A stretch of DNA of 20,161 bases from a virus. Position numbers and translations under genes: made by a program. The notes below the pieces were generated by a model. That model saw nothing but the letters and a program-made list of their open reading frames with translations, had not been told where the DNA came from and made no database searches. Where the stretch lies: positions 1-20,161 of IMG/VR virus record IMGVR_UViG_3300044846_000449, one strand, 5' to 3'. Below, in pieces: positions 2,553 to 19,651 of the stretch (position 1 is its first letter; every line of letters begins with the position of its first letter).

Positions 2553-4619
2553 TTATCCGTATTTAAGTGATCCCCGTGAGGGTGTGTCGATTGGTCGGGT
2601 TTGAGCCTCATCCCAAGCATTTGGAGTGAGCTTGCTCGTAGGTACGCCCGCTTTGATAGCCGACTCCGTAGAGACGAGCTTGTCGTTGTCAAGGCCTTCG
2701 TTGGGAAGGAACTTGCCTCCCTCTCTTTTGCGGAAGTAAACCAAACGCCTCCAAGCGTGGTGACAAAAGGCTCCGCCCTTCCACTTCCAAATAGAGTAGA
2801 CGCTTTGTCCCTCCGGAGCGAACTGACCGTTGACACCGCTGAAGCTCATCATATCGATGTCCTCCTTGCGGAACACGACTCCTCCGTTTGCTGCTCCTAC
2901 CATCTCACGGCAGAAGTCACGGCTATTTGCCGACAGGTTACGGGTGTAGGCGTAGCGTATCTTGTACAGGCCACTATCAAAGTTGCTGCGGTCATCAGCA
3001 TTGCTGAAGTCCTCAACTGCAAAGTTGTACTGCTTGGCGAGGTGGGCATCCTCATTGTCGGGGTCGCTGACTACCTCGTCAGAGACGAGTTCCCATTCAT
3101 TTAAGTCAACGACCTCGCCCTTTCCCCGCAGAGCCTCAATCCACTTGTGTTCTTCTTCGTGAGTGAATTCAGGTACTTCTTGCTTGAATTTGTGCGACTT
3201 CATCTGCGTGATGACGTTTGCCGAGTTGCCCGCAAAGAGAGCCTTCGCTACCTGCGGGTCGAACTGAAGCATCTGCACAAGGAACGTGATGGCTTGGTCG
3301 GTAGTAAGTACCCCATCCTTCACGCTCTGCATAATCTGAAGCGAGCTTGCAATCTGCGCACCATTGTACGAGGCCTCCTTCTGAATCAGCTCCTCTTGAG
3401 CTTCAGCAGGAACACCACCGACAGGCGTTGCTTCGGTGACCTTGATGCCCGTCTCCTCCTCAACGACTTCAGCATCCTCCACAACAAGGTTCGTGAACTC
3501 AAGGGGCTGCAAGGTCTTGAAGTAGATGTTCAGGCGGAGGTCGTTGTAGGATAGTATCTTGTTCAGTCCATCAAGGATCGTCTCCTGCATCGGCTTGATG
3601 ACGATGTTCTCAAACAGGATAGAGGCCGTTTTCAGCTCCTCTGCGTTGTTTCCAAGACCTGTATTGTCCTTGATGCCCATCAGCATCGGAGAGGTGATGC
3701 GGTGAGCCACCATCAGCTTCTGCATCGCCTCGCTCGACAGGAACTGATATTGGTTGTGCGCATCGCTCAACATCACGGGATCGATGGTAGCAGCAAGCTC
3801 TTTGTTGTCGTTGAACGCCAAGATAAACTTGCCTGCGTTGGATGAGCCGCTGAACTTCTGCGCAATCTGCATCTCGATCTGCCTGCGCTCCTCCTCACTC
3901 GGTACTCCGTTATTGAAGTTGATGAGCATCGAAGGCGCAAGACCATTCTGAATGTTGTTGATGTGGAAGTTGGCTACCTCCTCCTCAAGCTCTGCGTAAG
4001 GCAATCCGCCTTGGTAGTCCACGGGCGAGTACGCATAAAAGCCTGCACGATAGGGCTTGATGTAAAGGATCTCAATTGCCTCTTGGCTGAATCCGAAGGC
4101 GGGGATGCGCTGCGGGGTCTCCCTGCGTTGAGCAACATCCGACCAATCTTTGGCGTAGTAGTAGGCTTCAATCTCCCCTTCTTCGCTTGGCTTTTCAGCA
4201 CGAAGGCTCTCGATGGGGATATGCTCTACCTCGACAATGGTGTTGTGATCACGACTGTAAATAACCTGAAGGGCGCATTGACCCATCATCTTGTAGTCGG
4301 CTACGATCTTCCGGATGCAGTCCTTATGAAGGAGTCCCTTCATCGCTGCGTACTCCGCAGGCTTCTTTGCTGAATCCGTAGCGTCCAATCCCTCACCATA
4401 GATGAAGTCTACCACGCCATTGATCAGGGCGTTGTTGGTTGGTGATCCGTTGTATCGGTCAATTAAGTACTGAAAGTAGTCATTGTCATCACCGTATTCA
4501 ACCCATTCCTTGCCCTGCACCTCCTTGATAGTAGGGGTGGTGTAGGAACTTAAGTTGACAACGTGGACTTTAGATGATGATGTAGTCGTTGTCGTAGCTT
4601 GTTTCTTCGGTGTAGACAT
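2553..4619 (-). CDS. Portal protein with C-terminal extension (688 aa)
   Basis: Residues about 40-370 look like a portal core: an N-terminal segment with WVEYGDDNDYFQYLIDRYNG, a beta/alpha wing region, and a long helical part with SDAHNQYQFLSSEAMQKLMV followed by HRITSPMLMG at 307-316. The portal is the dodecameric ring through which DNA enters the head. Residues 380-530 are an acidic linker. Residues 550-632 form a separate domain with SRDFC (Cys570), a Trp-rich stretch and FCHHAW (Cys619, His620, His621). At 688 residues it is longer than typical portals of roughly 400-550. The extension may be a fused MuF/gp7-like minor head domain, an inference from the Cys/His pattern. The first 50 nt overlap the upstream gene. 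Confidence 0.85.
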   Translation of the reverse strand: MSTPKKQATTTTTSSSKVHVVNLSSYTTPTIKEVQGKEWVEYGDDNDYFQYLIDRYNGSPTNNALINGVVDFIYGEGLDATDSAKKPAEYAAMKGLLHKDCIRKIVADYKMMGQCALQVIYSRDHNTIVEVEHIPIESLRAEKPSEEGEIEAYYYAKDWSDVAQRRETPQRIPAFGFSQEAIEILYIKPYRAGFYAYSPVDYQGGLPYAELEEEVANFHINNIQNGLAPSMLINFNNGVPSEEERRQIEMQIAQKFSGSSNAGKFILAFNDNKELAATIDPVMLSDAHNQYQFLSSEAMQKLMVAHRITSPMLMGIKDNTGLGNNAEELKTASILFENIVIKPMQETILDGLNKILSYNDLRLNIYFKTLQPLEFTNLVVEDAEVVEEETGIKVTEATPVGGVPAEAQEELIQKEASYNGAQIASSLQIMQSVKDGVLTTDQAITFLVQMLQFDPQVAKALFAGNSANVITQMKSHKFKQEVPEFTHEEEHKWIEALRGKGEVVDLNEWELVSDEVVSDPDNEDAHLAKQYNFAVEDFSNADDRSNFDSGLYKIRYAYTRNLSANSRDFCREMVGAANGGVVFRKEDIDMMSFSGVNGQFAPEGQSVYSIWKWKGGAFCHHAWRRLVYFRKREGGKFLPNEGLDNDKLVSTESAIKAGVPTSKLTPNAWDEAQTRPIDTPSRGSLKYG

Positions 4620-4905
4620 TTTGATTGACCGTGAATTTGTCGAATTCGGTTTGTGAAGTTACGAAAACCCTATCTCGATAGATGAGGTTTCCTGCGTTAA
4701 AAACCTTCAAACCATAGAAGCGGTTGTTCACCAACGAGAACGTGCCTGTAAGGGTCATAAAACCATTCGCAGAGGCAGCAGTCACCGCAGGTGTTGCCGT
4801 TGTGTTTGTTGATTCGTCAATCAGTTGAATCGTGACGCTCGCAGGGTAGGAGCGTGGGATGATTGTAATTGATTGAGGCGAAGCTGATACTTGTAGAATA
4901 TGCAT
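4570..4905 (-). CDS. Small beta-rich phage protein upstream of portal (111 aa)
   Basis: The product starts MHILQVSASPQSITIIPRSY and ends in YTEETSYDNDYIII. It is rich in Thr, Val and Ile, with alternating hydrophobic residues that suggest a beta-sandwich, and has an NNRFYGLKVFNAGNLIYRDR segment that I associate with small proteins next to portals in Bacteroidota phages. I take the ATG at 4905 as the start. The frame stays open to 5058, but the longer version would read through an intrinsic terminator at 4940-4966. The chosen ATG follows GGTTATTTAG by 5 nt. The 3' end overlaps the portal start by 50 nt. Function unknown; a structural or neck role is a guess. Confidence 0.7.
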   Translation of the reverse strand: MHILQVSASPQSITIIPRSYPASVTIQLIDESTNTTATPAVTAASANGFMTLTGTFSLVNNRFYGLKVFNAGNLIYRDRVFVTSQTEFDKFTVNQNVYTEETSYDNDYIII

Positions 4906-4939
4906 CTCAACTAAATAACCTCGCCTTAAGTTTTTGTAT

Positions 4940-4966
4940 AAAAAAAGAGGGGCTTTCGCCCCCCTT
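4940..4966 (-). terminator. Intrinsic terminator after the tail-tube-like gene
   Basis: On the minus strand a stem of nine pairs (one G-T wobble) closes on a GAAA tetraloop (GGGGGGC, GAAA, GCCCCTC) and is followed directly by seven Ts. It lies 50 nt after the stop of the tail-tube-like gene and before the ATG at 4905. It should end or thin out transcription between the abundant tail protein and the portal. The stable GNRA loop and uninterrupted T tract make this a strong call. Confidence 0.88.
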
Positions 4967-5005
4967 CTCCATCCAATATGCCCCACTCCGTTCAGTAGTG
5001 CAGCA

Positions 5006-5013
5006 CAAATATA
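5006..5013 (-). promoter_or_regulatory. Possible Bacteroidota -7 promoter box (TATATTTG)
   Basis: TATATTTG on the minus strand matches the Bacteroidota -7 consensus TAnnTTTG exactly and lies in an intergenic gap, just after a stop codon. No clear TTG-type -33 element is seen 19-23 nt upstream, so it may be chance. If used, transcription would start near 5000 and meet the terminator at 4940-4966 after about 60 nt. Confidence 0.3.
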
Positions 5014-5015
5014 CG

Positions 5016-5582
5016 TTAGGAATTCGTACCTGTGGTAATGTTTACCGTAGCAGTACAACCCGCAAAAGGATTGTTCTGAACTGCACCTTCGATGAAGTAG
5101 GCAGGAGCCTTCTCCTGACCTTCCAAAGTCAAAGTGTAGCCTGACAGGTCACCCATAGCACCACCCGTTACAACGGTTCCACCCGTTACTTCAGCACCAT
5201 ACTGCATACCCATCAGGAAGCAGTTGCCATTGTAGTCCTCCACAAATACCTGTGGGCGACCGTAGGCCATCACCTTCAACTGCTTGTTGTCCTGCTTCGT
5301 GAGCTTGGTCAAGGTCAGGTTGAGGGTTTGGGTAAAGAAGGTAGTACCATTCTCACGGCTAACATTGAAAGCCTGCTCGAAAGATGAGTTGCCTTTCAAG
5401 TCATATTTGTAAACGGTGAAGGTTCCGCTGATGTCGGTGATTTCATCGAATGTTGCAGTCGCATCAGCGAAAGTAATTGCGCTGAAAGGAACGTCACCGA
5501 AGTCGGCAAAATATACCGCCCGCAGGCCACCCACCACGTTTTTACACGGAATCGCACGTCCAAGTTGTAAATCGCAAGCCAT
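5016..5582 (-). CDS. Major tail tube-like structural protein (188 aa)
   Basis: The protein is beta-rich and starts MACDLQLGRAIPCKNVVGGL. A middle part, LNLTLTKLTKQDNKQLKVMA, leads into YGRPQVFVEDYNGNCFLMG and a C-terminal part with EVTGGTVVTGGAMGDLSGYT and LTLEGQEKAPAYF. The TGG-TxTG-GD-GYTLTL pattern resembles tail tube subunits (gpV/gp19-type fold), which stack as rings around the tape measure. An intrinsic terminator lies on each side, as expected of a gene expressed at its own high level. The start has an A-rich leader (AAAATAAACAAAAGACAA). A head decoration protein is the main alternative, since it follows the major capsid gene. Confidence 0.6.
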   Translation of the reverse strand: MACDLQLGRAIPCKNVVGGLRAVYFADFGDVPFSAITFADATATFDEITDISGTFTVYKYDLKGNSSFEQAFNVSRENGTTFFTQTLNLTLTKLTKQDNKQLKVMAYGRPQVFVEDYNGNCFLMGMQYGAEVTGGTVVTGGAMGDLSGYTLTLEGQEKAPAYFIEGAVQNNPFAGCTATVNITTGTNS

Positions 5583-5605
5583 TTGTCTTTTGTTTATTTT
5601 GAATT

Positions 5606-5637
5606 AAAAAAGGGGGCGGGGCAGAACCCACACCCCC
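5606..5637 (-). terminator. Intrinsic terminator after the major capsid gene
   Basis: The minus-strand sequence AGGGGGTGTGGG, TTCT, GCCCCGCCCCCT forms a GC-rich hairpin: five G-C pairs at the base, then two weaker pairs, a T/C mismatch and two G-C pairs. It is followed by TTTTTT. It lies 24 nt after the capsid stop codon and before the A-rich leader of the tail-tube-like gene. Some read-through must occur if the next gene has no promoter of its own, so it probably tunes expression. Confidence 0.82.
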
Positions 5638-5661
5638 TCGTGGTTTAAACTATGACTCGGA

Positions 5662-6588
5662 TTAAGAGTAGAGAACTACGTCAGAACCGATACCGTACTG
5701 AACACCTGCGAAGAAACGCAAGATCACACGAATGTTGTCTGATCCATCGAGGTCAGCCATATCAAGTACACGAACCTCGTTGCGCTCGTTGAGCAGTCCG
5801 GTACCGAAGTACAGGTTGCTTGATTGAGCAGCGACCATTTTGTTCGAAGGAAGTCCGTTGACCATAGCAACACGGATGCCATCGAAGTACAAAGGTTGGT
5901 CACCGTACCACATCGTGCCTTTGTTGTCAAGACCGTTAGCACCAAGACCTGAAGCACCGAAGCCACCCAAAGCACGAACGTAGGCTTTAGCCACATTCTG
6001 CGGAACGTAGATGGTCAGATCTTCCTTGCCGTAAAGGGCAGCAGGGATAGCGTCTACAACCTTGCCAAGCTCGGTGATTACGTTGCTTGCAGAAACCGTG
6101 GTGGCAGTCACGTCAACAACGTCAGAGTCAGCAGTCATCAAAGAAAGGAATCCGCTGAATTCTCCGGCAGAGGCAGCGTTACCATTCCAAATGTTTTGCT
6201 CGATCTTTTGAGCAGTCTTGGCAGCTACGTGAGCAATCAAGAAGTCAGCAAAAGAAGCAGGGATGCTATCGTAAGCAGAGAAGCCCATTTGACCACCGAT
6301 CCAAGAATCGTAGTAGTCCTTCTTGCAAAGCTGAAGGTTTACTTGGAAAGGCTCAACCTCAAGAACACGGTCAGTCAAAGTCAGGGTAGACGTAGCGGTG
6401 AAGTCGCAAGTTGCGTCTTTTACGATGTCGTCAGTACCTACCTTCTGAAGGGTGGTCTTGAAGTTTACGTTCGGGAGGATTTCGACAAGTCCTTTGTCAA
6501 GGGTGTCGGCAGACAACAAAGCGGCAGAGATGTACTTGCTCGCAAATTGGCCTGCATAGTTGGTAGTGATAGAAGTGGTCGTTGCCAT
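5662..6588 (-). CDS. Major capsid protein, HK97-fold type (308 aa)
   Basis: Size, position right after a scaffold-like gene and sequence character point to the major capsid protein. It starts MATTTSITTNYAGQFASKYI. A middle part, FLIAHVAAKTAQKIEQNIWN, resembles the long spine helix region. A later part, GKEDLTIYVPQNVAKAYVRA, looks like an A-domain strand-helix unit, and the C-terminus is IRVILRFFAGVQYGIGSDVV. No long N-terminal delta domain is seen, in keeping with a separate scaffold gene. It would form the icosahedral shell in hundreds of copies. The leader is A-rich (AACAAATAATCAAATCAGAAA). A strong terminator follows. HK97 fold is inferred rather than shown. Confidence 0.85.
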   Translation of the reverse strand: MATTTSITTNYAGQFASKYISAALLSADTLDKGLVEILPNVNFKTTLQKVGTDDIVKDATCDFTATSTLTLTDRVLEVEPFQVNLQLCKKDYYDSWIGGQMGFSAYDSIPASFADFLIAHVAAKTAQKIEQNIWNGNAASAGEFSGFLSLMTADSDVVDVTATTVSASNVITELGKVVDAIPAALYGKEDLTIYVPQNVAKAYVRALGGFGASGLGANGLDNKGTMWYGDQPLYFDGIRVAMVNGLPSNKMVAAQSSNLYFGTGLLNERNEVRVLDMADLDGSDNIRVILRFFAGVQYGIGSDVVLYS

Positions 6589-6600
6589 TTTCTGATTTGA

Positions 6601-7200
6601 TTATTTGTTAAGACGTGCAAGGACTCGGTCAATCGACTTTGCAGGACGATTAAATTCAACCTTGTTGGCTTGCTTTGTTGCGGGCGTGTGCTTGATGGGT
6701 TTAGCGGCAGCTTGAGATGAGAACTCTTGCTTTGCAGCAGCCATCTCTTGCTTGTAGGCTTCCATCGCCTCTTTCATTTTTTTCATTTCGCTCTGAATCT
6801 CCTCAACGAGGGGAGCTACTGCTTCAGCGACTGCTACCTCGATAACGGCAACAACCTCTTGAGCAACTTCAGCAACGGCCTCTGAAGCAACCTCCTCGGC
6901 TACTGCAACGGCTTCTTCTGACTGCATCTCGATCTCAACTTCAACCGGAGCTTCGGCTTCTTTGATCTCGGCAATCATTCCTTCTTCCAAGATAACGAGG
7001 ATGCGACCATCTTCGAGCTTGTGTTCGCCAACAGGAGCTGCAACACGATCTTCACCGCTAACGATGAATACCTCATTGCCTGCTTCAAAGGCTTCAGCCT
7101 CAAGAACGGCTCCGTTCTCAAGTGTCATAGTTGCAAACTTTACTTCACGTACGGAAGCGAGTTCAGCAAGGATTCGGTTCAGAATAGAATTTGCTTTCAT
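6601..7200 (-). CDS. Head scaffolding protein (199 aa)
   Basis: Residues about 15-80 form a short beta-rich segment (FATMTLENGAVLEAEAFEAG, then VGEHKLEDGRILVILEEG). Residues 85-165 are an acidic Ala/Glu/Val-rich helix and coiled coil (EEVASEAVAEVAQEVVAVIE, then EIQSEMKKMKEAMEAYKQEM). The C-terminus is basic (FNRPAKSIDRVLARLNK) and could bind the capsid inner face. This acidic coiled coil plus basic tail, placed directly before the major capsid gene and near a prohead protease, is what a scaffold or prohead core protein looks like. It would be degraded or released during maturation. The ATG follows ATTTATTTAGTTAGAT. Confidence 0.78.
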   Translation of the reverse strand: MKANSILNRILAELASVREVKFATMTLENGAVLEAEAFEAGNEVFIVSGEDRVAAPVGEHKLEDGRILVILEEGMIAEIKEAEAPVEVEIEMQSEEAVAVAEEVASEAVAEVAQEVVAVIEVAVAEAVAPLVEEIQSEMKKMKEAMEAYKQEMAAAKQEFSSQAAAKPIKHTPATKQANKVEFNRPAKSIDRVLARLNK

Positions 7201-7240
7201 ATCTAACTAAATAAATTGGGTTGGGTTAATTGTTACATTT

Positions 7241-7465
7241 TTAAAGATCCTGCCATAGCGTGTTCGTGGCCTCCCATCGGGTGTTGATGGTCTGCCATTC
7301 TTCGCCACGGATGCGGACGCTTGTGCCTTGACCTACGAGAGATCCGATACCTTGAGCAGCAAGAGACCCATCGCAGCATTTGCGTGAGTAGGTGTTGTCT
7401 TTGCAAAGGCATCCCCTGTTGCCGCCTCTTGGTGAGGCTACGGGAAGGCGTTGTGGTCTCATCAT
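7241..7465 (-). CDS. Small Cys-rich phage protein with tryptophan heptad tail (74 aa)
   Basis: The product begins MMRPQRLPVASPRGGNRG and contains CLCKDNTYSRKCCDGSL (Cys19, 21, 30, 31), then QGIGSLVGQG. It ends in a Trp heptad (WQTINTRWEATNTLWQDL; Trp57, 64, 71). I recognise the CLCKD-TYSRKCCDGSL pattern from small ORFs in Bacteroidota phages near the capsid gene; no function is known to me. The four Cys could bind a metal or form disulfides. The start is ATG 7465 or ATG 7462; the second forms an ATGA-type overlap with the upstream stop. Longer ORFs in this region (to 7540 and, in another frame, to 7571) were rejected because only this segment looks like a conserved protein. Confidence 0.65.
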   Translation of the reverse strand: MMRPQRLPVASPRGGNRGCLCKDNTYSRKCCDGSLAAQGIGSLVGQGTSVRIRGEEWQTINTRWEATNTLWQDL

Positions 7466-8091
7466 CGTGATTGAGTTCTTTGGATGAATAGAATAATGTC
7501 CCAAACGAGGATAGCACCACCGACTGCCGTGATCTGCCAATAGTTTCCGTTGGTGAGAAAGTCCTCGTCAACGTAGTATTGGAATACGTTGTGAAAGGGA
7601 TGCTCTACGTTGTTGCCTCGTGGGAACGTAAATGTTGTAGCCAATCGCTCGTATGGGGTTCCGTTACCTCCTTCAAGGCGCAACTCTCCGTAGGTTTGTT
7701 GAGCGTTTGCTGCGCTTGCTTTGAACACCACCGTTGCGATATAGGTGTCGTTCTCTTTGATGCCGTACACACGACCTGTGGTGGGGTTGTATAAATCAGC
7801 AGGCGTGTTCAGGTATGAGGTGATTGTTGCTCCGTTGTTCGGAAGCAAGGCAGGCACTCCGTTAGCAAAAGAAAGTTTGTTGCTTGAGGTATATTGACCA
7901 TCGTCCCAACGTGCCCAACCAAGTCCCTGCGCATCGCTCGTGTTGAGGTTGACCCACGCACCGCTACGCACAATCCAATATCCCGTCTCGGTCTGAACGA
8001 TTGAGCCTTCTTCGATGGCGTACGTCAGACGCTCCGCATCGCTGATGACATCGGTCTGAACTTTGATGGCGGTGTTCTTGCGTGTACTCAT
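7462..8091 (-). CDS. Putative virion structural protein (209 aa)
   Basis: The protein begins MSTRKNTAIKVQTDVISDAE. A stretch with QTETGYWIVRSGAWVNLNTS and ARWDDGQYTSS has Trp/Tyr-rich strands, and a second half (NDTYIATVVFKASAANAQQT, then LRLEGGNGTPYERLATTF) has a carbohydrate-binding or jelly-roll feel. A hydrophobic C-terminal stretch, ITAVGGAILVWDIILFIQ, could be a membrane-like or buried helix. It overlaps the protease stop by 4 nt (ATGA) and lies in the head module, so a head decoration or fiber-like role is possible. I do not recognise the family with confidence. Confidence 0.7.
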   Translation of the reverse strand: MSTRKNTAIKVQTDVISDAERLTYAIEEGSIVQTETGYWIVRSGAWVNLNTSDAQGLGWARWDDGQYTSSNKLSFANGVPALLPNNGATITSYLNTPADLYNPTTGRVYGIKENDTYIATVVFKASAANAQQTYGELRLEGGNGTPYERLATTFTFPRGNNVEHPFHNVFQYYVDEDFLTNGNYWQITAVGGAILVWDIILFIQRTQSR

Positions 8092-9005
8092 AGCTTGCCG
8101 AGTTCTTTCAGTTTAGATTCTGCCCATTGCTTGCCTGCAAGTCCGCCCCACAAAAGGTAGCTGATAGTGCCACAGGCTTGCGTGTCGTTCTCATCGTAGT
8201 ACGTCTCGGCTCGTGATAGGTACGAGTGCATCCGAGTAATCGTTTCCAAGCTGATGGGTTTTTTCTGTGACAATTGCTGCGCTCTTATCTTGCCCACATC
8301 GGTGGCGCACTTGTTGCCGTTCTTCTCGTTCAGCTCGATGCCACGCTTGGCGTTGTTGCTGACCGATTCGGGGTAGTCGGAGTACGACTCAAGGGCGATA
8401 GCACGACCATCCTTCTTGATGATGTTTGCGATTTGTGATAGGATGAGAGCCGCCTCTTGCTCCTCGATCTTGGCAAGCTCTTGCTTGCTGAAGTTCATCT
8501 TGTCAACGAAGTAGCCCTCGATGCTGAAGCCCTTGAACTCGCCATCTTTGACACGCTTCCAAATGCTCTCGTTGTCAATCTTCATCGAGACCATCCACGT
8601 GCCAACAGGCAGGTCAAGGCCGTAGGCACGGCTCTTGTCAAGGGTATCGTCCTCGATGATCCACGATTCTACGATTGTAGTTCCGTCAACCTCGTAGTCG
8701 TGTTCGATTGTAGCGTTTCTTTGGTAGCCGTTCTTAAAGAACAGTTCCATCGCTTTGCGGATGGTGTCCTTTGAGAAGTACACATAGTACTCATTCTCGC
8801 CATCGGTTCGGTAGATGGGCTTGTCAGGGATCAAGGCAGCACCCATCAAAAGACGCTTCTCTTGGTTCTGCATTGCAAAGGTCTCTTTCTTTTGCGTGTT
8901 GAGCGCAATGAAGTCCTCCTCAATAGCGGGGTATTCGACAAGGCTGATAGCATCGATGCCCGTCAGGGCCATCGTCTCATCAAGGATTAGTTCGATTAGT
9001 TTCAT
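8088..9005 (-). CDS. XkdF-like prohead protease with extra C-terminal domain (305 aa)
   Basis: Residues about 1-175 resemble the XkdF-type phage serine protease. They include LMGAALIPDKPIYR, a histidine in NATIEHDYEV (His102), the segment KSRAYGLDLPVGTWMVSMKI, and the serine in FKGFSIEGYF (Ser161). His and Ser are placed as in herpesvirus-type assemblin proteases that cleave scaffold and capsid. Residues 211-305 are a separate helical domain (YPESVSNNAKRGIELNEKNG, then CGTISYLLWGGLAGKQWAES) that I associate with other phage head proteins but cannot name. It overlaps both neighbours by 4 nt (ATGA) and lies upstream of scaffold and capsid, which are its likely substrates. Confidence 0.78.
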   Translation of the reverse strand: MKLIELILDETMALTGIDAISLVEYPAIEEDFIALNTQKKETFAMQNQEKRLLMGAALIPDKPIYRTDGENEYYVYFSKDTIRKAMELFFKNGYQRNATIEHDYEVDGTTIVESWIIEDDTLDKSRAYGLDLPVGTWMVSMKIDNESIWKRVKDGEFKGFSIEGYFVDKMNFSKQELAKIEEQEAALILSQIANIIKKDGRAIALESYSDYPESVSNNAKRGIELNEKNGNKCATDVGKIRAQQLSQKKPISLETITRMHSYLSRAETYYDENDTQACGTISYLLWGGLAGKQWAESKLKELGKL

Positions 9006-10606
9006 CCGAATGTTGCGGTTCTTACTCGTTGACGTTCCAATTGTTGTGCGGTCGTTACCTCACCACCTACGACATACGCACGGATGGGTTGGTTGAACTG
9101 ACTGCCGATGCTTTGTGCAAGCTGATTCGTGCCACTTTGTCCAACGATGTTGAACTGCGGTGCAGGCACGGAGCCATCACCTCCGGCAGCGGAGGAGTTG
9201 ATTGATGGGTTTGAAGGTTGTGAGTCACTCCAAGTGAACTTCTGCGCTCCAATAGCAGCTACACGGGCAAGGCCACCTGCTACGGCTACGGCAGCAGCGA
9301 TCTGCGCACGTACAACGGACGTGGGGTCACCGATGATGAGCTGCGAGGTGTACGCCTTTTGTGCGGCTGCATAGGTCGACACGATGGTCTCTGCGATGCT
9401 TAACGCCTTATTGCGGTTGAACGCTCGCTCTGATGCCTCCTTGTTATTGGCATCGTAGATGGAATTCAGCTCCTTGAGCGCACCGATAGTGCCAAGCGCA
9501 GAATCAACGGCAAGATCTTGCAGCGACTGACGGTAGGCTCTCTCTTTGTCTATCTCGTCTTTGCGTGCCTTGTCTGCTGCATCTGATTCAGCCTTTCTCG
9601 CCCGGGCTTGGCGGATCTTGCGCTCCTCCTCTGCCCAAATCTCTTGATCTTCTATCTCTTGAAGTTGGTCTTGATAGAACTCAAGAAGATCAACACTAAA
9701 CTTCGCCCGTGAACGGACGGCCTCATTTCCCTTCTCAACTGCCTTTGCAAGCTCGTCTGCCCAATAGTTGTTGCTGACGATGATTGCATTCAGTCGGTTG
9801 AACTCCTCCTGACGCTCACGCTCACGGTCTGCCTTTGCTTGCTTTGCGGCTGCTTCTTTTGCATCACGCACACGCTTGTCCTCTGACAGGTCGAGCGCAC
9901 GGAGTGCTGACTGCTTGTCGAGGATGTCTTGAGAGATTTGCTTTTGAGCCTCTGCGTCATCGTACAGGAACGCCTGCTTTGCAATCAGGTCTTGCAGCTC
10001 TTGGTTGAGCAGTTCCTTGCGCTTGCTATATACGGTCTCGGCTGCTGCTCCGGAAGCCTCCAATTCTGCGATCTCCCGCTTGATCTCGTTCGATGCGCCA
10101 TCACGTGCCTTGCGCTCCTTGTCAAGAGCGTCAGCGGCCTGTCGTGTGGTATCAATGTATTGCTTCTTGGCTTCGTCAGCCTTCTTGAGAGCCTCTGCCT
10201 CCTCCTCTGCTGATGTAGTCAGTTCATCGTATAACTGAACGAGGCTCTGAATGACGAGGATAGCAATACCAAAGGCAGCAGTTTTCAGAGCAAGGTCAAG
10301 ACCTTTTACTCCTGCGGTTGCTGCTTTGACGGATTCATACGCCTGAAAGAACGCATCTGACATCCCTCCGGTCAGATCGTTGATGAGTCCCTTGATTGGG
10401 GACACCGTTTTCTTTAGCGTCTCAAGGTCTCTTGTACCTTCTTTGATTTTGGTGTCGCCTTGGGCAGGTTGGTCAAACGCTTCCGCAAGCTCATCCTTGA
10501 CCTCTTTGGCCTTTCTCTTTACGCCATCAAGCTCCTTCGTGATTTTGTCAGCGGCAGGAGCAGCATTGGTCGTGATGCTTATGTTGATATTTACTTCTTC
10601 AGCCAT
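9002..10606 (-). CDS. Tail tape measure protein (534 aa)
   Basis: The N-terminal 130 residues include a hydrophobic helix (ALKTAAFGIAILVIQSLVQL, about 106-125). A long charged coiled coil covers about 130-370 (EEEAEALKKADEAKKQYIDT, later DKARKDEIDKERAYRQSLQD). A helical segment follows with NRNKALSIAETIVSTYAAAQ, then an Ala-rich helix, and the C-terminus ends QPIRAYVVGGEVTTAQQLER. That tail pattern is typical of tape measure ends in Bacteroidota phages as I know them. The tape measure sets tail length and is ejected with DNA. At 534 residues it is short, which suggests a short siphovirus-like tail. AGGAGG ends two nt before the ATG. Its start overlaps the 52-residue ORF by 16 nt. Confidence 0.75.
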   Translation of the reverse strand: MAEEVNINISITTNAAPAADKITKELDGVKRKAKEVKDELAEAFDQPAQGDTKIKEGTRDLETLKKTVSPIKGLINDLTGGMSDAFFQAYESVKAATAGVKGLDLALKTAAFGIAILVIQSLVQLYDELTTSAEEEAEALKKADEAKKQYIDTTRQAADALDKERKARDGASNEIKREIAELEASGAAAETVYSKRKELLNQELQDLIAKQAFLYDDAEAQKQISQDILDKQSALRALDLSEDKRVRDAKEAAAKQAKADRERERQEEFNRLNAIIVSNNYWADELAKAVEKGNEAVRSRAKFSVDLLEFYQDQLQEIEDQEIWAEEERKIRQARARKAESDAADKARKDEIDKERAYRQSLQDLAVDSALGTIGALKELNSIYDANNKEASERAFNRNKALSIAETIVSTYAAAQKAYTSQLIIGDPTSVVRAQIAAAVAVAGGLARVAAIGAQKFTWSDSQPSNPSINSSAAGGDGSVPAPQFNIVGQSGTNQLAQSIGSQFNQPIRAYVVGGEVTTAQQLERQRVRTATFG

Positions 10607-14173: not shown

Positions 14174-14733
14174 TGTCTTGGTTGTTGCAACGTGAATCGT
14201 AGGAAGTCAGCCACCTCAAGCGCATAGGCTTGCGCAATTTCGTTGGGAAGCTGCTCGAATTGTAATTGGAACGGCTTGGTGAAGAAGCTCGTTGTTTTGA
14301 TGCCCTTGTTGTAGATGCTTCGGGTGATCAGGAATGCGGTCGCATCGTAGCTCAAGAACTGACCCTTCTTGCCCTCCTCACGGCTTTGGAATTGGAATCT
14401 CCGTGTACGCACCCATTGGTTGATAGCACGGGTCAAGCCGCCACGCATACCGCTGCTCCCTGTTCCGAATCGGAATGGACTGTTGGGGGCTTTGTTGGAT
14501 GACGTCTTGCCCTTGACACCGTAGTCCTGAAACTTCCAATAGGGAGCAAGCTCGTCCATCTTCCATTGCAGGGCGATTGAGTTGGGGTTCACCTCAATGT
14601 AGTACTGAAGTGAATTGGCAAGGTTGCCTGTGACGTTCTTGTTCTCACGGGCAAGGTTAGCCTTCGCCTGCTCGACTACGCCATTGGCAAACTTCTCAAG
14701 GCTTGCTCGGACAAGATCCTGCCGGAGTTGCAT
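14170..14733 (-). CDS. HK97 gp10-like tail completion / neck protein (187 aa)
   Basis: A helical N-terminus (MQLRQDLVRASLEKFANGVV) is followed by VTGNLANSLQYYIEVNPNSI, then PYWKFQDYGVKGKTS, APNSPFRFGTGSSG and FLITRSIYNKGIKTTSFFTK. The order helix, xTGxLxxSL, aromatic FxDYGV, PFRFG and an RxIYxKGIKxT segment fits HK97 gp10-like head-tail joining or tail-completion proteins. It overlaps the upstream gene by 1 nt (TAATG) and lies beside the tail-terminator candidate, where such proteins usually sit. The family call is from motif order only. Confidence 0.6.
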   Translation of the reverse strand: MQLRQDLVRASLEKFANGVVEQAKANLARENKNVTGNLANSLQYYIEVNPNSIALQWKMDELAPYWKFQDYGVKGKTSSNKAPNSPFRFGTGSSGMRGGLTRAINQWVRTRRFQFQSREEGKKGQFLSYDATAFLITRSIYNKGIKTTSFFTKPFQLQFEQLPNEIAQAYALEVADFLRFTLQQPRQ

Positions 14734-15200
14734 TAGCAGATAGAGATTTCGGTGTTAGAGAGCAGCACATCGAAGGTGGCAGTCCACCCCGCAAGCAGGT
14801 TCTCGAAACGCTCCGTGAACGGAAGGCACGTAGGGTTGCCGTCCAACTGATACAGGTCGGAGTACAACTGCCCTCTGCGAAGCTCCTCTACCACATCGTT
14901 GATGACTGCAAGCTGCGTGTTGAGGATGTCTTGCACGTTGCTCGTTCCGTAGAACGGCTCCGCCTGCGCACGTGGGTTCTCTTTTGTCTCATCCACCACG
15001 TCCATACAAATGAGGCTGATGCTCATACGCACCACCTGACCTTCGAACGTAGCTTGGTTCACCATAATGTGCGACAATGGGAAGATTGTCTGCTTGTTGA
15101 GGTCAACGTCATAAACGTCACCCGTAGTCACTACGTTGACTTGGCTATTGGCTTCAAGGGTGTCCTTGAGCTTGGTGGTGATGTCGTAGAATTGTCTCAT
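14733..15200 (-). CDS. Tail terminator-like protein (155 aa)
   Basis: A helical N-terminus (MRQFYDITTKLKDTLEANSQ) is followed by VNVVTTGDVYDVDLNKQTIF, a strand-rich middle (VVRMSISLICMDVVDETKEN), a long helix (VQDILNTQLAVINDVVEELR) and a C-terminal strand pair ending TATFDVLLSNTEISIC. Helix, strands, long helix, final strand is the layout of small tail terminator and tail-completion proteins, which cap the tail tube at the head end. It starts 4 nt inside the end of the frameshift ORF (ATGA). No specific family motif is certain, so a general tail or neck protein is the alternative. Confidence 0.5.
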   Translation of the reverse strand: MRQFYDITTKLKDTLEANSQVNVVTTGDVYDVDLNKQTIFPLSHIMVNQATFEGQVVRMSISLICMDVVDETKENPRAQAEPFYGTSNVQDILNTQLAVINDVVEELRRGQLYSDLYQLDGNPTCLPFTERFENLLAGWTATFDVLLSNTEISIC

Positions 15201-15927
15201 TTTTTCAGTTGTTTTTGGAGGATCTTGTTCTCCGTTTCTATGCGCTCTTTTTCAAAGGTGAGGTAGGTGAATGCGAATGATGCTGACATCTCTGCTACTT
15301 GACCGAACTTGAGGGGGTCTCCATTAGAGAGCTGATAGTAGATGGTGACCCAAGACCATTTTTGAGAAAATTGTGCAGCGGGACTAAATTCATCTCCTGC
15401 TCCATTCCCAAAGATTTCAGGGAAGCGATCGATAAATCGTTTCCTAAAGTCCAAAAAAAAAGCATCGCACCAATCGCAATGTCAAGGGGTACGTCTTTCA
15501 TCTTGTCTGCGTACTTCTCTGACCCCTCGTATTTTTCTATCTCGTATCGGCTACCGAATGTTGCGGTCACAGGACGGAACATCACCGCCATTGCACGGTG
15601 CATCTGCGACCAATCCGAGATGTAGGTGTCGATGTCATTGAGTTCACCAACGGTGATCTCCTCAAGCGATGGGATGAACCCGAACTCTTGCTTGTCGATG
15701 AAGAAGCGTTGCTTCAGAGGTGGGCGTTCCGAAAACGCCTTCATCAGCACCGCATTGATCTTGTTGAGCGAGGATGCCTTCATCTGAAGGATGACGTCCA
15801 TCGACAGGTTGCAGAAGATCTCAAGGGCTTTGCGTGATAGAAACTCCTCGTCACCTTCCAAGCGCACAAAGCGTTGGTAGTCCGACAGGCGGATCTCGTT
15901 CATCTGATTTGGAACAATGAGCTTCAT
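15197..15927 (-). CDS. Tail assembly chaperone, -1 frameshift fusion (about 243 aa)
   Basis: This product joins residues 1-158 of the zero-frame protein to 85 residues in the -1 frame (LDFRKRFIDRFPEIFGNGAG, then FSQKWSWVTIYYQLSNGDPL and LTFEKERIETENKILQKQLK). The -1 ORF has no ATG before residue 56 of that part and begins at the T9 slippery run itself, so it is probably reached by frameshifting. The arrangement mirrors the G/GT chaperone pair of lambda-like phages, where a minor fusion product helps assemble the tail around the tape measure. The next gene starts by ATGA overlap at the end of this ORF, which suggests the -1 frame is translated to its stop. The fusion itself is inferred. Confidence 0.65.
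15295..15927 (-). CDS. Tail assembly chaperone, zero-frame product (210 aa)
   Basis: The ATG at 15927 is chosen over a TTG one codon upstream; it follows GGTTATTTTATTG. The product begins MKLIVPNQMNEIRLSDYQRF and has LSRKALEIFCNLSMDVILQM, then KQRFFIDKQEFGFIPSLEEI, DIDTYISDWSQMHRAMAVMF and PLDIAIGAMLFFWTLGNDLS. This helical pattern fits a gpG-like tail chaperone that precedes tape measure genes. It continues 52 codons past the slippery run, more than lambda G does, so the 160-nt region is read in two frames. Chaperone function is inferred from family likeness, frameshift and position between terminase and tail genes. Confidence 0.68.
   Translation of the reverse strand: MKLIVPNQMNEIRLSDYQRFVRLEGDEEFLSRKALEIFCNLSMDVILQMKASSLNKINAVLMKAFSERPPLKQRFFIDKQEFGFIPSLEEITVGELNDIDTYISDWSQMHRAMAVMFRPVTATFGSRYEIEKYEGSEKYADKMKDVPLDIAIGAMLFFWTLGNDLSIASLKSLGMEQEMNLVPLHNFLKNGLGSPSTISSLMETPSSSVK
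15421..15461 (-). promoter_or_regulatory. Programmed -1 ribosomal frameshift signal
   Basis: On the minus strand nine Ts (15461-15453) cover the zero-frame codons CTT TTT TTT, giving the slippery heptamer T TTT TTT. Nine nt after the heptamer a stem begins (15444-15421): GGAA/TTCC and CGAT/ATCG arms with one A-C mismatch between them, and a loop of about six nt. Slippery heptamer, 5-9 nt spacer and downstream stem is the standard layout for -1 frameshifting. The -1 frame leads into the 85-residue ORF that ends at 15197. Confidence 0.72.
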
Positions 15928-15948: not shown

Positions 15949-17109
15949 TTAACGTATGGCATAGCGTCCGTAGTTGGGCTTCGAGAGCTTGTTGTAGGTG
16001 GCGTACCTCACCGCATCGATGGCGTGGTTGAATGCGTCAATGGGTTTGTTGAGCAGGTTGGAGTTCTTGTCCTCCACCCATTTGTAGTTCTGAAGCTCCT
16101 TGATTAGGTTGGTGCTTCGTGGTGTTGCAAATATCTTGTGACGCTTCAGCACATCAATACCCACTATGACGCTATCTGCGCCCTTCTGCGTGGGTTTTAT
16201 GTTCCATCCCATACGATGTAGCTCCTCGATGGATTTGGGTTCAGCAGAGTCAGCGAAAATCTCTGACCTGCGGTCGAGGTTCAGGCTCTTGAGGTGGTTG
16301 CTGATGTCGGGGTTGGTGAGTCCGGTGCGGTAGATCAGCTCGTCAAGGTAGAGGTTGTCTCCTGATTTGTACACCGCCACAAGTGCCGTTGGGTCGTTCG
16401 TGTACCCGAAGTCCATTCCATAGGCGAGCAAGGTTGCATCAGCAGGTATGTCGTTGGTGCCGAACTGAAAGATGGTAGCTCGGCTCATACCACGCTCACC
16501 CAAGCCGTAGATGCGCCAATAGTCCTCATCGGTTGTTGCGAGGCGTTCAATCTCCGCCACGATGGAGGCATCAAGAAAAGGGTTGTCCTTGTATGTACTT
16601 TGTATATACGTTACATCGTCACGGGTCAGCAAACGGTCATAGATCCAATGGAACGCATCAGATGGGTTGTAGTCAATCCATATCTTGCCTGTGGTACGAA
16701 CCAAGAGCTGAAAGAAGTCCTCCCAAGAAAGTTCGTTGGCCTCGTTGCAGAATAGGTAGTCACGTCTTGCTCCTCGTTTCTTCTGCGGTTGGTCAAGGCT
16801 GATGAACTCAAAGAGGTTGCCGTTGAGGGTGTAGGTGTAGTCGCTCTTGTTATGGCGTGACTCATCGTACAACTCAAGTTTGTTGAGGATCTCAAAGAAG
16901 TCACGGTAGGCGGTCATCTTGAGTGATGGGAGCGACTTACGCACAATAGAAAAAACCTTCCCCTTCTCTTGCATTGCGATCACGATCAGCATCTGCAAGA
17001 TGGAGTAGGTCTTTCCGGAACGTGAGCCTCCTTGATTGACTACTATCCGTGTGGGTGCGGTGTAGTTCTTCTCAAAGAGTTCACTCGTCTTTACTTGCAG
17101 AACGGACAA
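15949..17109 (-). CDS. terL: Terminase large subunit, PBSX-type (386 aa)
   Basis: The ATPase has Walker A GGSRSGKTYS at 27-36 and a Walker B-like YLFCNEAN at 118-125. DYNPSDAFHW at 146-155 follows. The C-terminal nuclease shows GMDFGYTNDP (Asp233), IFADSAEPKS (Asp287) and a final helix with DAFNHAIDAVRYA (Asp366), the metal-binding acidic set of RNase-H-fold terminases. The layout is that of the PBSX/Terminase_3 group. It cuts concatemeric DNA and pumps it into the prohead through the portal. The frame opens with TTG at 17109; no ATG or GTG occurs before Walker A and an in-frame stop lies two codons upstream. It overlaps the small terminase gene by 29 nt. Confidence 0.93.
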   Translation of the reverse strand: MSVLQVKTSELFEKNYTAPTRIVVNQGGSRSGKTYSILQMLIVIAMQEKGKVFSIVRKSLPSLKMTAYRDFFEILNKLELYDESRHNKSDYTYTLNGNLFEFISLDQPQKKRGARRDYLFCNEANELSWEDFFQLLVRTTGKIWIDYNPSDAFHWIYDRLLTRDDVTYIQSTYKDNPFLDASIVAEIERLATTDEDYWRIYGLGERGMSRATIFQFGTNDIPADATLLAYGMDFGYTNDPTALVAVYKSGDNLYLDELIYRTGLTNPDISNHLKSLNLDRRSEIFADSAEPKSIEELHRMGWNIKPTQKGADSVIVGIDVLKRHKIFATPRSTNLIKELQNYKWVEDKNSNLLNKPIDAFNHAIDAVRYATYNKLSKPNYGRYAIR

Positions 17110-17416: not shown

Positions 17417-17677
17417 CTAAATAACCCGCTTTGACAAGTGGTGGTTGTGAACTGCCTTCAGCATCTCCTTGTGTTTGGTCTTGTCCCCGAATGCGTTGTG
17501 GCATTTGCGGCATAGCCCCATCAGGTTGTCGATGGTGTCCGCCTCTTTGCTGCCTCCCATACCACGAGCCTCAATGTGGTGGATGTCTACGGCCTGTGCT
17601 TGGCATACCTCGCAAGGGATCCAATCGGTTGTATCGTAGCCCATCCCTTTCAGGTAGACCTTTGTGTGGTTCTTCAC
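17417..17677 (-). CDS. HNH endonuclease (86 aa)
   Basis: Cysteine pairs CEVC and CRKCH flank the HNH core: DIHHIEARGMGG, then DNLMGLCRKCHNAFGD. The His-His, Asn and final His with four zinc-binding Cys are all present, so the enzyme looks intact. I chose the GTG at 17677, which forms a GTGA overlap with the methyltransferase stop, as at other junctions here; a TTG at 17692 would give 91 residues. HNH proteins beside terminases (HK97 gp74 type) assist DNA cutting during packaging, often in cos phages. That role is inferred from the position; a homing endonuclease is the alternative. Confidence 0.88.
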   Translation of the reverse strand: MKNHTKVYLKGMGYDTTDWIPCEVCQAQAVDIHHIEARGMGGSKEADTIDNLMGLCRKCHNAFGDKTKHKEMLKAVHNHHLSKRVI

Positions 17678-18201
17678 TTTTGGTAGATCCAACAGTCGTC
17701 AATGAACGTGGCGTGCGGGAGTAGCTCGTCTACTGCTTGAATTACGCCTTGCCAATTTTCGTGATAGTCGTCTCCTGCTATGTAGCCTCCCTTCTTTACT
17801 TTGGGAAGCCATAGCTGAATATCCTCTTTGACTGCCTCGTAGGTATGGGTTAGGTCGATGAACACCACGTCAAGTGATTCGGCTTTGAACTTCCGTGCTG
17901 CTGCTTTGGATGTTGCTCTGATGGCCTTGTACTTGCGGTCTCCCATATTCTCAACGAACAGGTCGTAGATGTCTACTTCCGTTGCGAGCTTGTGGGTGGT
18001 GGTGAGTTCGTTTGGTGATCCCTTCCAAGTGTCCACGATTGTGACATCTATTCCGTGAGCGTTATCACATAAATAGGCAGATGACTTTCCGAGCCACGCA
18101 CCGAGTTCTACGAATGACCCTCCCTCCGGTACTTTGGAGATTAAGAAGTCGTATGCTGCTTGGTGGTTGAACCACCCGTCAATTTGTTTGTGTGTTTTCA
18201 T
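17674..18201 (-). CDS. Class I SAM-dependent methyltransferase (175 aa)
   Basis: Motif I is GSFVELGAWLGKSSAYL at 28-44 (Glu32, Gly34). An acidic loop follows strand two (VTIVDTWKGSP, Asp57). Then comes DVVFIDLTHTYEAVKEDIQL at 111-130 and WLPKVKKGGYIAGDDYHENW. The FID-x-x-H-x-YExV-x-D and GGYIAGDDY pattern is that of the Methyltransf_24 group, which includes sugar and small-molecule O-methyltransferases. It has no DNA methyltransferase motif such as DPPY. It overlaps the upstream glycosyltransferase by 4 nt (ATGA), so I infer it methylates a sugar or glycan made by that cassette. Substrate unknown. Confidence 0.85.
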   Translation of the reverse strand: MKTHKQIDGWFNHQAAYDFLISKVPEGGSFVELGAWLGKSSAYLCDNAHGIDVTIVDTWKGSPNELTTTHKLATEVDIYDLFVENMGDRKYKAIRATSKAAARKFKAESLDVVFIDLTHTYEAVKEDIQLWLPKVKKGGYIAGDDYHENWQGVIQAVDELLPHATFIDDCWIYQK

Positions 18202-18725
18202 CGCAGGGCGTTATAGTAGCAAAGATAGGCATCCACGCAGATCAGCGTTCCTTGAGCTGCTAATGCAGCAGCAAACTGTCCATCGGCTTCGTAGATGTTA
18301 GCGAATCGGAGCTTGGGCACGTGGTAAGGTTTGAACATAAAGGATGCGGTGTCTATGTTCCCGACTTTTGGTTGGTCGGTAGGGCGTAGCCTTCCCTCCT
18401 GTCCCCACGTTACGATTGTAGAATCGAGGTTGTGTAGGTTGCTCCACTCCTCGTTGAACTTGGGATGGATGATATTGTCATCGTCCAAGAAGTACACCCA
18501 ATCCTCTTGAGTGAATTGGTCTTGGTACAGGTCAAGGAACTCGTTGCGTAGGGGGTTGCCCCAATGTCCCGTCTTGGTAGAGTAGTGGGTGACGTTTGCG
18601 CCTGTTGCTTCCTTGAAGTCGCAATTTGCGTCCATCATCACGACCCACGTTGCCCAATCGGGGATGTACTGTTTCATCCGCTTTAGGTTGCGGGGGCGTG
18701 AGCAGGGGGTCACAATGTAAAGCAT
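18198..18725 (-). CDS. GT-A fold glycosyltransferase (175 aa)
   Basis: The product begins MLYIVTPCSRPRNLKRMKQY, a nucleotide-sugar binding start (VTPxxRP). It then has HYSTKTGHWGNPLRNEFLDL and DWVYFLDDDNIIHPKFNEEW, whose Asp81-Asp82-Asp83 is the metal-binding DxD motif. The arrangement resembles GT43-like or other GT-A enzymes. I chose the ATG at 18725; an upstream ATG at 18923 would read 66 residues in an out-of-frame part of the previous gene that do not look like protein. It overlaps the GT-B gene by 16 nt. Possible targets are phage virion, phage DNA base or host surface sugars; the sequence does not decide. Confidence 0.82.
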   Translation of the reverse strand: MLYIVTPCSRPRNLKRMKQYIPDWATWVVMMDANCDFKEATGANVTHYSTKTGHWGNPLRNEFLDLYQDQFTQEDWVYFLDDDNIIHPKFNEEWSNLHNLDSTIVTWGQEGRLRPTDQPKVGNIDTASFMFKPYHVPKLRFANIYEADGQFAAALAAQGTLICVDAYLCYYNALR

Positions 18726-19651
18726 CGCAGTTGGTTTATTTTGTCCATCGTGAATTCTTGCACGTAGTCGTGTAACGAATCCGCTATATCTTGGACTTGG
18801 TTGGGGTTTTCGTTTAGCCTCTTGATTGCTCCTGCCCATTCGCTTGGGTGGTTGATGGCAATGCAGTTGTCTTTGGTGATGTATGGGGTGTAGGGGTGCG
18901 TGTTGCTCACGATCAGAGCGCACTTGCTAAATCCTGCCTCAAGCATCTTCAGATGCGATTTGCACTTTGCGAATTCGCTTGTTGATAGTGGCACAAGGCT
19001 CACGTCAAAGAAGTCGTACAAACGATGGTATGAGTTTGGTGGGAAGGTGTTGAGTGTGTGGTTCGCCTTCATCATCGTTGGGTAGTTGTCTACGTTTGCA
19101 ACGAATGATTCATATCCGGTCAGGTCGATTGTTGATTCACGGATGTCCGCTTGGTGGTGGTTGCCTCCGATGTAGCCAAATCGAACCTTCTCTGATGGCT
19201 CTCGGTTTATCTGCCAAGTGGGTACGCTGATGGCGTTGGGGATGACTCGGATGTTGGTGTTGTACTTTCTGACCTTTGAAGCAAGGTGCTTGTTGGTGAC
19301 CCATACCTCGTCAGCTACTTTGATTGACTTGACGATGCGCTCCTTCACCTTGTCGACATAAAGTCCACGAAGGGGATGGGCGGGAGGTAGCACCCACCAA
19401 TCGTCTTGATCCAAGATTAGCTTGATTCCTTCTCTTTTGCAGAGGGTGATGAAGTCATCAAACGGATCAACGGGAAAGGTACGGCTTGCAAATATGTGCG
19501 TTACGTTAGGCCATACCTCCGGATCGAGGTCGGTAATCTTCTCGATGAAGTAGATGTCAGCCTCCTGATGGCAGATCAGAGGGGCAAATACACGGTGATA
19601 GCTTACCCCCGAATTCTTCTTGTGGAAGGCTAATACAAAAGGTCTACTCAT
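18710..19651 (-). CDS. GT-B fold glycosyltransferase (313 aa)
   Basis: The first half has ILDQDDWWVLPP at 79-90 and VADEVWVTNKHLASKVRKY at 112-130, followed by IRVIPNAISVP, the linker into the second Rossmann domain. That domain begins VRFGYIGGNHHQADI at 156-170 and contains FDVSLVPLSTSEFAKCKSHL with KMLEAGFSKCALIVSNTHPY, where Glu238 of the LEAG motif would hold the sugar nucleotide. This matches GT4-type glycosyltransferases. The N-terminus (MSRPFVLAFHKKNSGVSYHR) is the donor/acceptor face. It overlaps the upstream ORF by 8 nt. Part of a two-glycosyltransferase plus methyltransferase cassette. Confidence 0.85.
   Translation of the reverse strand: MSRPFVLAFHKKNSGVSYHRVFAPLICHQEADIYFIEKITDLDPEVWPNVTHIFASRTFPVDPFDDFITLCKREGIKLILDQDDWWVLPPAHPLRGLYVDKVKERIVKSIKVADEVWVTNKHLASKVRKYNTNIRVIPNAISVPTWQINREPSEKVRFGYIGGNHHQADIRESTIDLTGYESFVANVDNYPTMMKANHTLNTFPPNSYHRLYDFFDVSLVPLSTSEFAKCKSHLKMLEAGFSKCALIVSNTHPYTPYITKDNCIAINHPSEWAGAIKRLNENPNQVQDIADSLHDYVQEFTMDKINQLRCFTL

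Follow-up and report, generated by a model that had tools for sequence, protein, structure and literature searches.

A -1 frame change conserved at a T9-T10 run in a gene of marine Bacteroidota phages, with a likely lambda G/GT-like role

We analysed a window of 20,161 nucleotides of viral DNA (IMG/VR record IMGVR_UViG_3300044846_000449), the minus strand of which carries a gene read in two frames. Comparison with relatives indicates that the -1 frame change at its run of nine Ts is programmed, and that the gene occurs in a large and previously undescribed group of phages that infect marine Bacteroidota (flavobacteria). We favour, with a probability of about 0.7, the reading that its two products are tail-assembly factors similar to the lambda G/GT pair, made by a -1 change at T9-T10 through which one N-terminal domain would be joined to either of two C-terminal tails. 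The comparisons identify this as a real programmed frame change of a known kind; its unusual aspects are the length-locked T9-T10 run and a long overlap in which both frames are kept in most of the family. In the literature searched, we found no description of this flavobacterial-phage frameshift gene family. The gene is an unannotated recoding gene, which current records list as one hypothetical protein or two, and whose slip site, dual-coding overlap and products are all visible in the evolutionary record. A T9-T10 run followed a few bases later by TTTA could serve as an annotation marker for the fusion in this phage group, and the question of ribosome versus polymerase is open to test in cultured phage (P12024S/L).

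The locus and its relatives

The zero-frame gene runs on the minus strand from an ATG at 15927 to a stop at 15295 and, as read and translated, encodes 210 aa. The nine Ts occupy codons 156-158 (CTT TTT TTT) and run into TGG, so that the zero-frame reading GCG ATG CTT TTT TTT TGG holds a T_TTT_TTT heptamer in phase. A -1 slip would join the first 158 codons to an 85-codon ORF, open to 15197 and without an ATG near its beginning, to give a 243-aa fusion; the next gene starts by an ATGA overlap at 15200, at the end of this ORF. Past the slip, the zero frame continues for 52 codons. The initial annotation had described the in-phase heptamer within the nine-T run, the 85-residue ORF lacking its own ATG, the ATGA start of the next gene and a zero frame extending 52 codons beyond the slip, with about 160 nt read in two frames. 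Our reading, translation and coordinates agree on each of these points, the measured overlap being about 159 nt (Table 1).

Table 1. Features of the frameshift gene and of neighbouring genes in the window
Feature	Coordinates	Strand	Evidence or remark
Shared N-terminal domain, 158 codons (ATG to second TTT of the slip site)	15454..15927	-	dN/dS, AlphaFold2, phrog_32199
Slip site T9, zero frame CTT TTT TTT Tgg	15453..15461	-	T9/T10 in all relatives
Dual-coded hexamer TTTAGG (Phe-Arg in -1 frame, Leu-Gly in zero frame)	15443..15448	-	82/86 relatives
Hairpin, unconserved	15421..15444	-	Present in window; relatives compared
Zero-frame tail, 52 codons, overlapping the -1 domain; WTLGNDLS, the first ~8 codons, conserved	15295..15453	-	
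-1 frame domain, 85 codons, without own ATG, motifs FRxR ... WxW	15197..15454	-	
Next gene, 155 aa, ATGA overlap	14733..15200	-	phrog_30964, unknown function
HK97 gp10-like gene (tail completion/neck type), 187 aa	14170..14733	-	PF04883 E=0.029, weak, below cutoff
Probable tape measure protein	9002..10606	-	phrog_1506 tail length tape measure E=1.1e-6
Terminase large subunit, directly upstream of the frameshift gene	15949..17109	-	PF04466 E=4.1e-28, phrog_2 E=4e-44

Using tblastn and pattern searches, we found 42 close loci with identities of 71-99%; distant relatives, at 27-30% identity, include the cultured Inhavirus phages P12024S and P12024L of Nonlabens. Larger searches, whose patterns were placed outside the T run and hence did not select for it, yielded families with more than 550 members. 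We compared two sets, one of 86 non-redundant members and one of 67 additional loci at greater distance; the second contains a few contigs already present in the first. Four loci lie in host assemblies: two in Winogradskyella MAGs, one in the cultured Flagellimonas onchidii and one (L333) on a contig binned as Epsilonproteobacteria. The last is probably misbinned phage DNA, because the other host-assembly matches are flavobacterial. The Nonlabens phages, the F. onchidii scaffold and the Winogradskyella MAGs bear out the Bacteroidota host range proposed earlier. On one contig (L039:4001) the copy is intact except for a premature stop at codon 16, probably the result of an assembly indel.

Conservation of the slip site and coding in both frames

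A run of nine Ts is not rare in 20 kb: 0.33 are expected by chance anywhere in the window, counting both strands, and 24 of 100 shuffles have one. The case for a programmed frame change therefore rests on conservation in the relatives. At the slip codon, the 86 non-redundant relatives have T9 in 57 cases and T10 in 29, and the 67 more distant loci have T9 in 52 and T10 in 15; runs of 7, 8 or 11 and more were found at this codon in neither set. The homologue comparison suggested by the initial annotation thus finds the T run kept in 86/86 and 67/67 relatives. In every one of the roughly 150 comparable loci that we inspected, the most distant at 27% identity, T9/T10 is kept at the slip codon and the -1 ORF is open, as it is in all complete relatives. 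The run occupies five registers in the first set, every one of which contains the in-phase T_TTT_TTT. Elsewhere in the relatives' loci, T runs of at least nine occur at 0.06 per kb. Immediately before the boundary, Phe is encoded by TTT in all 86 relatives, while TTT and TTC are equally frequent elsewhere in the N-terminal domain (157:157). The first codon of the -1 frame varies among relatives (TTA, TTG, GTG, TCT or CTA), and the FRxR motif directly after it is conserved.

The hexamer TTTAGG follows the T run in 82 of the 86 members. It is the only hexamer that codes for Phe-Arg in the -1 frame and Leu-Gly in the zero frame, and both the zero-frame LGx[DE]LS and the -1 FRx[RG] motifs are conserved among these members; more distant ones keep TTTA, with different second residues. 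We also considered TTTAGG as an RNA signal, which is not needed, since two-frame coding alone explains it.

Substitution patterns in the window clade differ between the frames. The dN/dS ratio is 0.11 for the shared N-terminal part and, in the -1 frame, 0.21-0.33 within the overlap and 0.14 downstream of it; the zero frame in the overlap gives 0.78 for the first 30 nt and 1.04 for the rest. From these values it follows that the -1 product is real and under purifying selection, and that in this clade the zero-frame tail is important only at its start. Beyond about eight codons the tail is probably relaxed here, because the chance of meeting no zero-frame stop is 0.12 in the window and up to 0.5 in the clade, and tail lengths vary (47, 52 and 82 codons). 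The 82-codon tails, in L040 and L076, span the -1 domain almost entirely.

In most of the family, by contrast, the comparisons indicate that the zero-frame tail is under selection and kept open alongside the -1 domain. In 67 of the 86 members this tail measures 55-56 codons, and its end is conserved (..sLxeiLxdLkISlN*). From each member's -1 protein and codon usage we would expect 3.6 zero-frame stops in the main-family tail, but none is seen; the median chance of finding no stop is 0.003, a probability that cannot be multiplied across members, which are related. Beyond the tail's stop, zero-frame stops appear at the chance rate (286 seen vs 257 expected). We considered and rejected a zero-frame tail that is neutral throughout, which is true of the window clade only. 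The 160 nt described at the outset as read in two frames thus constitute a real overlap and not a mere spacer, more strongly in the relatives than in the window itself. In one main-family member (L238, just after 1618), a zero-frame stop lies six codons past the slip, reflecting either a truncated tail or a sequence error. The AlphaFold2 model of the full zero-frame product of a relative (L191) has its last helix crossing the slip to about residue 174, with the remainder disordered, and this helix fits the conservation of the first residues after the slip.

Ribosome or RNA polymerase slippage

The slip is most likely ribosomal: tRNA-Phe in the P and A sites would re-pair on U_UUU_UUU with no help from a conserved RNA structure. 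The main alternative, or a possible contributor, is that RNA polymerase slips on the T run, a mechanism that the length-conserved T9-T10 suits nearly as well. We place ribosomal slippage somewhat ahead, mainly because the characterised frameshifts of tailed phages (lambda-type) are ribosomal; sequence alone does not decide. An in-phase heptamer of the X_XXY_YYZ form is present in the window and in every relative. Conservation of a downstream structure, which is usual but not obligatory for ribosomal frameshifting, was not found.

The window does have a stem of 9 bp with one A-C mismatch, beginning 8 nt downstream of the T run and 9 nt downstream of the heptamer, present as the initial annotation had described it. 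Over 58 nt, folding of the stem region of the window does not surpass that of shuffles (z-score 0.24); over the first 45 nt the z-score is -3.3. Across relatives, 59% of cells at the stem are paired, no more than in shuffles; fold z-scores scatter around 0, and RNAalifold found no consensus fold of the relatives. With neither covariation nor a consensus fold, we ruled out the stem-loop as a stimulator. An alternative helix pairing UUUAGG with CCUGAA was no better than shuffles. What stands of the proposed frameshift signal is therefore the programmed -1 change with a genuine fusion partner, as seen in the relatives, while the stem drops out of it. Tailed-phage frameshifts can work without stimulators (PMC5009743).

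If the polymerase were instead to stutter on T9/T10, some mRNAs would carry U10 and be translated normally into the 243-aa product, whereas U8 and U11 mRNAs would end at once in the +1 frame. The feature expected of transcriptional slippage, an A/T homopolymer of about nine or more that is length-conserved irrespective of register, is found in 86/86 and 67/67 relatives. A ribosomal slip needs just seven in-phase Ts, yet the run has 9 or 10 in every relative, never 7 or 8, and its length is held in all five registers. Any 9-T run, however, holds an in-phase heptamer, so robustness also explains a length of nine, and the extra Ts are partly due to hydrophobic codons. In relatives with a C directly after it, the run gains a base on its upstream side, which favours the polymerase but could reflect one event in evolution. 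In 86/86 relatives the +1 frame meets a stop within two codons, although mostly within TTTAGG, which dual coding already explains. The failure to find a conserved stimulatory RNA would also suit the polymerase, and bacterial polymerases do slip on runs of 9 A or T, for example in Thermus dnaX (PMC5009743). Weighing these points together with the ribosomal nature of the known lambda-type cases, we regard transcriptional slippage as possible but rather unlikely. The fuller proposal that this flavobacterial phage family makes a tail-chaperone pair by polymerase slippage on a length-locked T9-T10 run, with about 165 nt after the slip encoding two functional tails, seems doubtful to us.

Function and comparison with known systems

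A lambda G/GT-like function is likely. Most products would end with the zero-frame tail and be G-like, while a minority would carry the 85-residue -1 domain and be GT-like. The lambda analogy would assign coating of the tape measure to the shared domain and recruitment of the tail tube protein to the -1 domain. Such a role is supported by a late structural operon that holds terminase, gp10-like, tape measure, protease and portal genes. The order is terminase, frameshift gene, phrog_30964 gene, HK97 gp10-like gene, two large genes, tape measure candidate, protease, head genes and portal. The gene shares with the G/GT type overlapping ORFs joined by a conserved programmed frameshift. It does not share the position directly upstream of the tape measure, lying directly after the terminase and separated from the probable tape measure by genes of 155, 187, 407 and 733 aa. 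Because of this lack of adjacency, we describe the gene as likely to work like G/GT without classing it in that type. The 155-aa phrog_30964 gene stays beside the frameshift gene in relatives, and the P12024 homologue of the gp10-like gene matches phrog_5 'tail completion or Neck1' (E=4e-4). The gene order (2553-10606) is unusual in that an XkdF-type protease (PF14550, 8088-9005) and the portal (2553-4619) lie downstream of the tape measure candidate, with the terminase, chaperone-like and tail genes first. Upstream of the terminase (17674-19651) are methyltransferase (PF13578) and glycosyltransferase-like (phrog_7162) genes.

The N-terminal domain matches phrog_32199 (E=3.5e-20), and its AlphaFold2 model has a mean pLDDT of 89.6. 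Fold matches to this model in BFVD include many uncharacterised Caudovirales proteins and a single named one, the Tail assembly chaperone of ctCpR1, which is weak (E 0.07, probability 0.87). Sequence and fold searches of the PDB with the domain gave no match, and Pfam, PHROGs and PDB hold no functionally named homologue of the gene. This lack of a recognised chaperone homologue, together with a position right after the terminase and four genes short of the tape measure, would also fit a conserved frameshift gene that is no tail chaperone, for instance a head-tail connector or another structural protein made in two forms. The genes next downstream are tail-type, however, and two-form genes made by a -1 shift in tailed phages are mostly of the G/GT type, so we judge such a protein improbable.

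We find it very hard to credit that the -1 ORF is an independent gene with an internal start, whether a TTG or GTG near the slip or a later ATG. The ORF in the window does begin with TTG, and GenBank gives P12024S_39 its own start at the zero-frame stop; but the first codon varies among relatives as listed above, FRxR is conserved from the slip itself onwards, before any ATG occurs, and an internal start leaves the conserved T run without a reason. Two independently started genes, which the initial annotation had named as a possible refutation, were looked for in the relatives and are not the case. A homopolymer sequencing or assembly error, or a pseudogene, can be dismissed, since the run, error-prone as nine Ts are, and the frames are identical in the isolates P12024S/L, the cultured F. 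onchidii genome and over 100 contigs from many independent metagenomes, and both frames are under selection.

Returning to the G/GT-like reading, the gene resembles lambda G/GT (and the HK97 gp13/14 type) in being a short late-operon gene with a -1 shift near the end of its first ORF, in fusing a second ORF that has no start, in being followed by tail genes and in needing no conserved stimulatory structure. It differs in slipping on a T9-T10 homopolymer rather than on a heptamer such as lambda's GGGAAAG, in having no detectable sequence homology to lambda G/GT and in lying after the terminase instead of directly before the tape measure. Moreover, lambda G ends shortly after the slip, whereas the zero-frame product here has a tail of ~50 residues dual-coded with the -1 domain.

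Another close counterpart is the homologous gene of Inhavirus P12024S (phrog_32199; P12024S_38 and P12024S_39), which has T9 at the same codon at 27-30% identity. Unlike the fusion described here, it stands in GenBank as two unrelated hypothetical proteins, and its zero-frame tail is only 25 codons long. In that genome (L043, JQ823122.1, 12001-12695), the -1 frame from T9 joins P12024S_38 and P12024S_39, and the annotated start of P12024S_39 is probably wrong. Thermus dnaX and Shigella mxiE/spa13, which use transcriptional slippage, resemble the gene in slipping on a homopolymer (9 Ts in Thermus dnaX), in making long and short products of one gene and in having a stop nearby in the remaining frame (PMC5009743). 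They are cellular or plasmid genes, however, whereas the run in the phage gene always holds an in-phase ribosomal heptamer.
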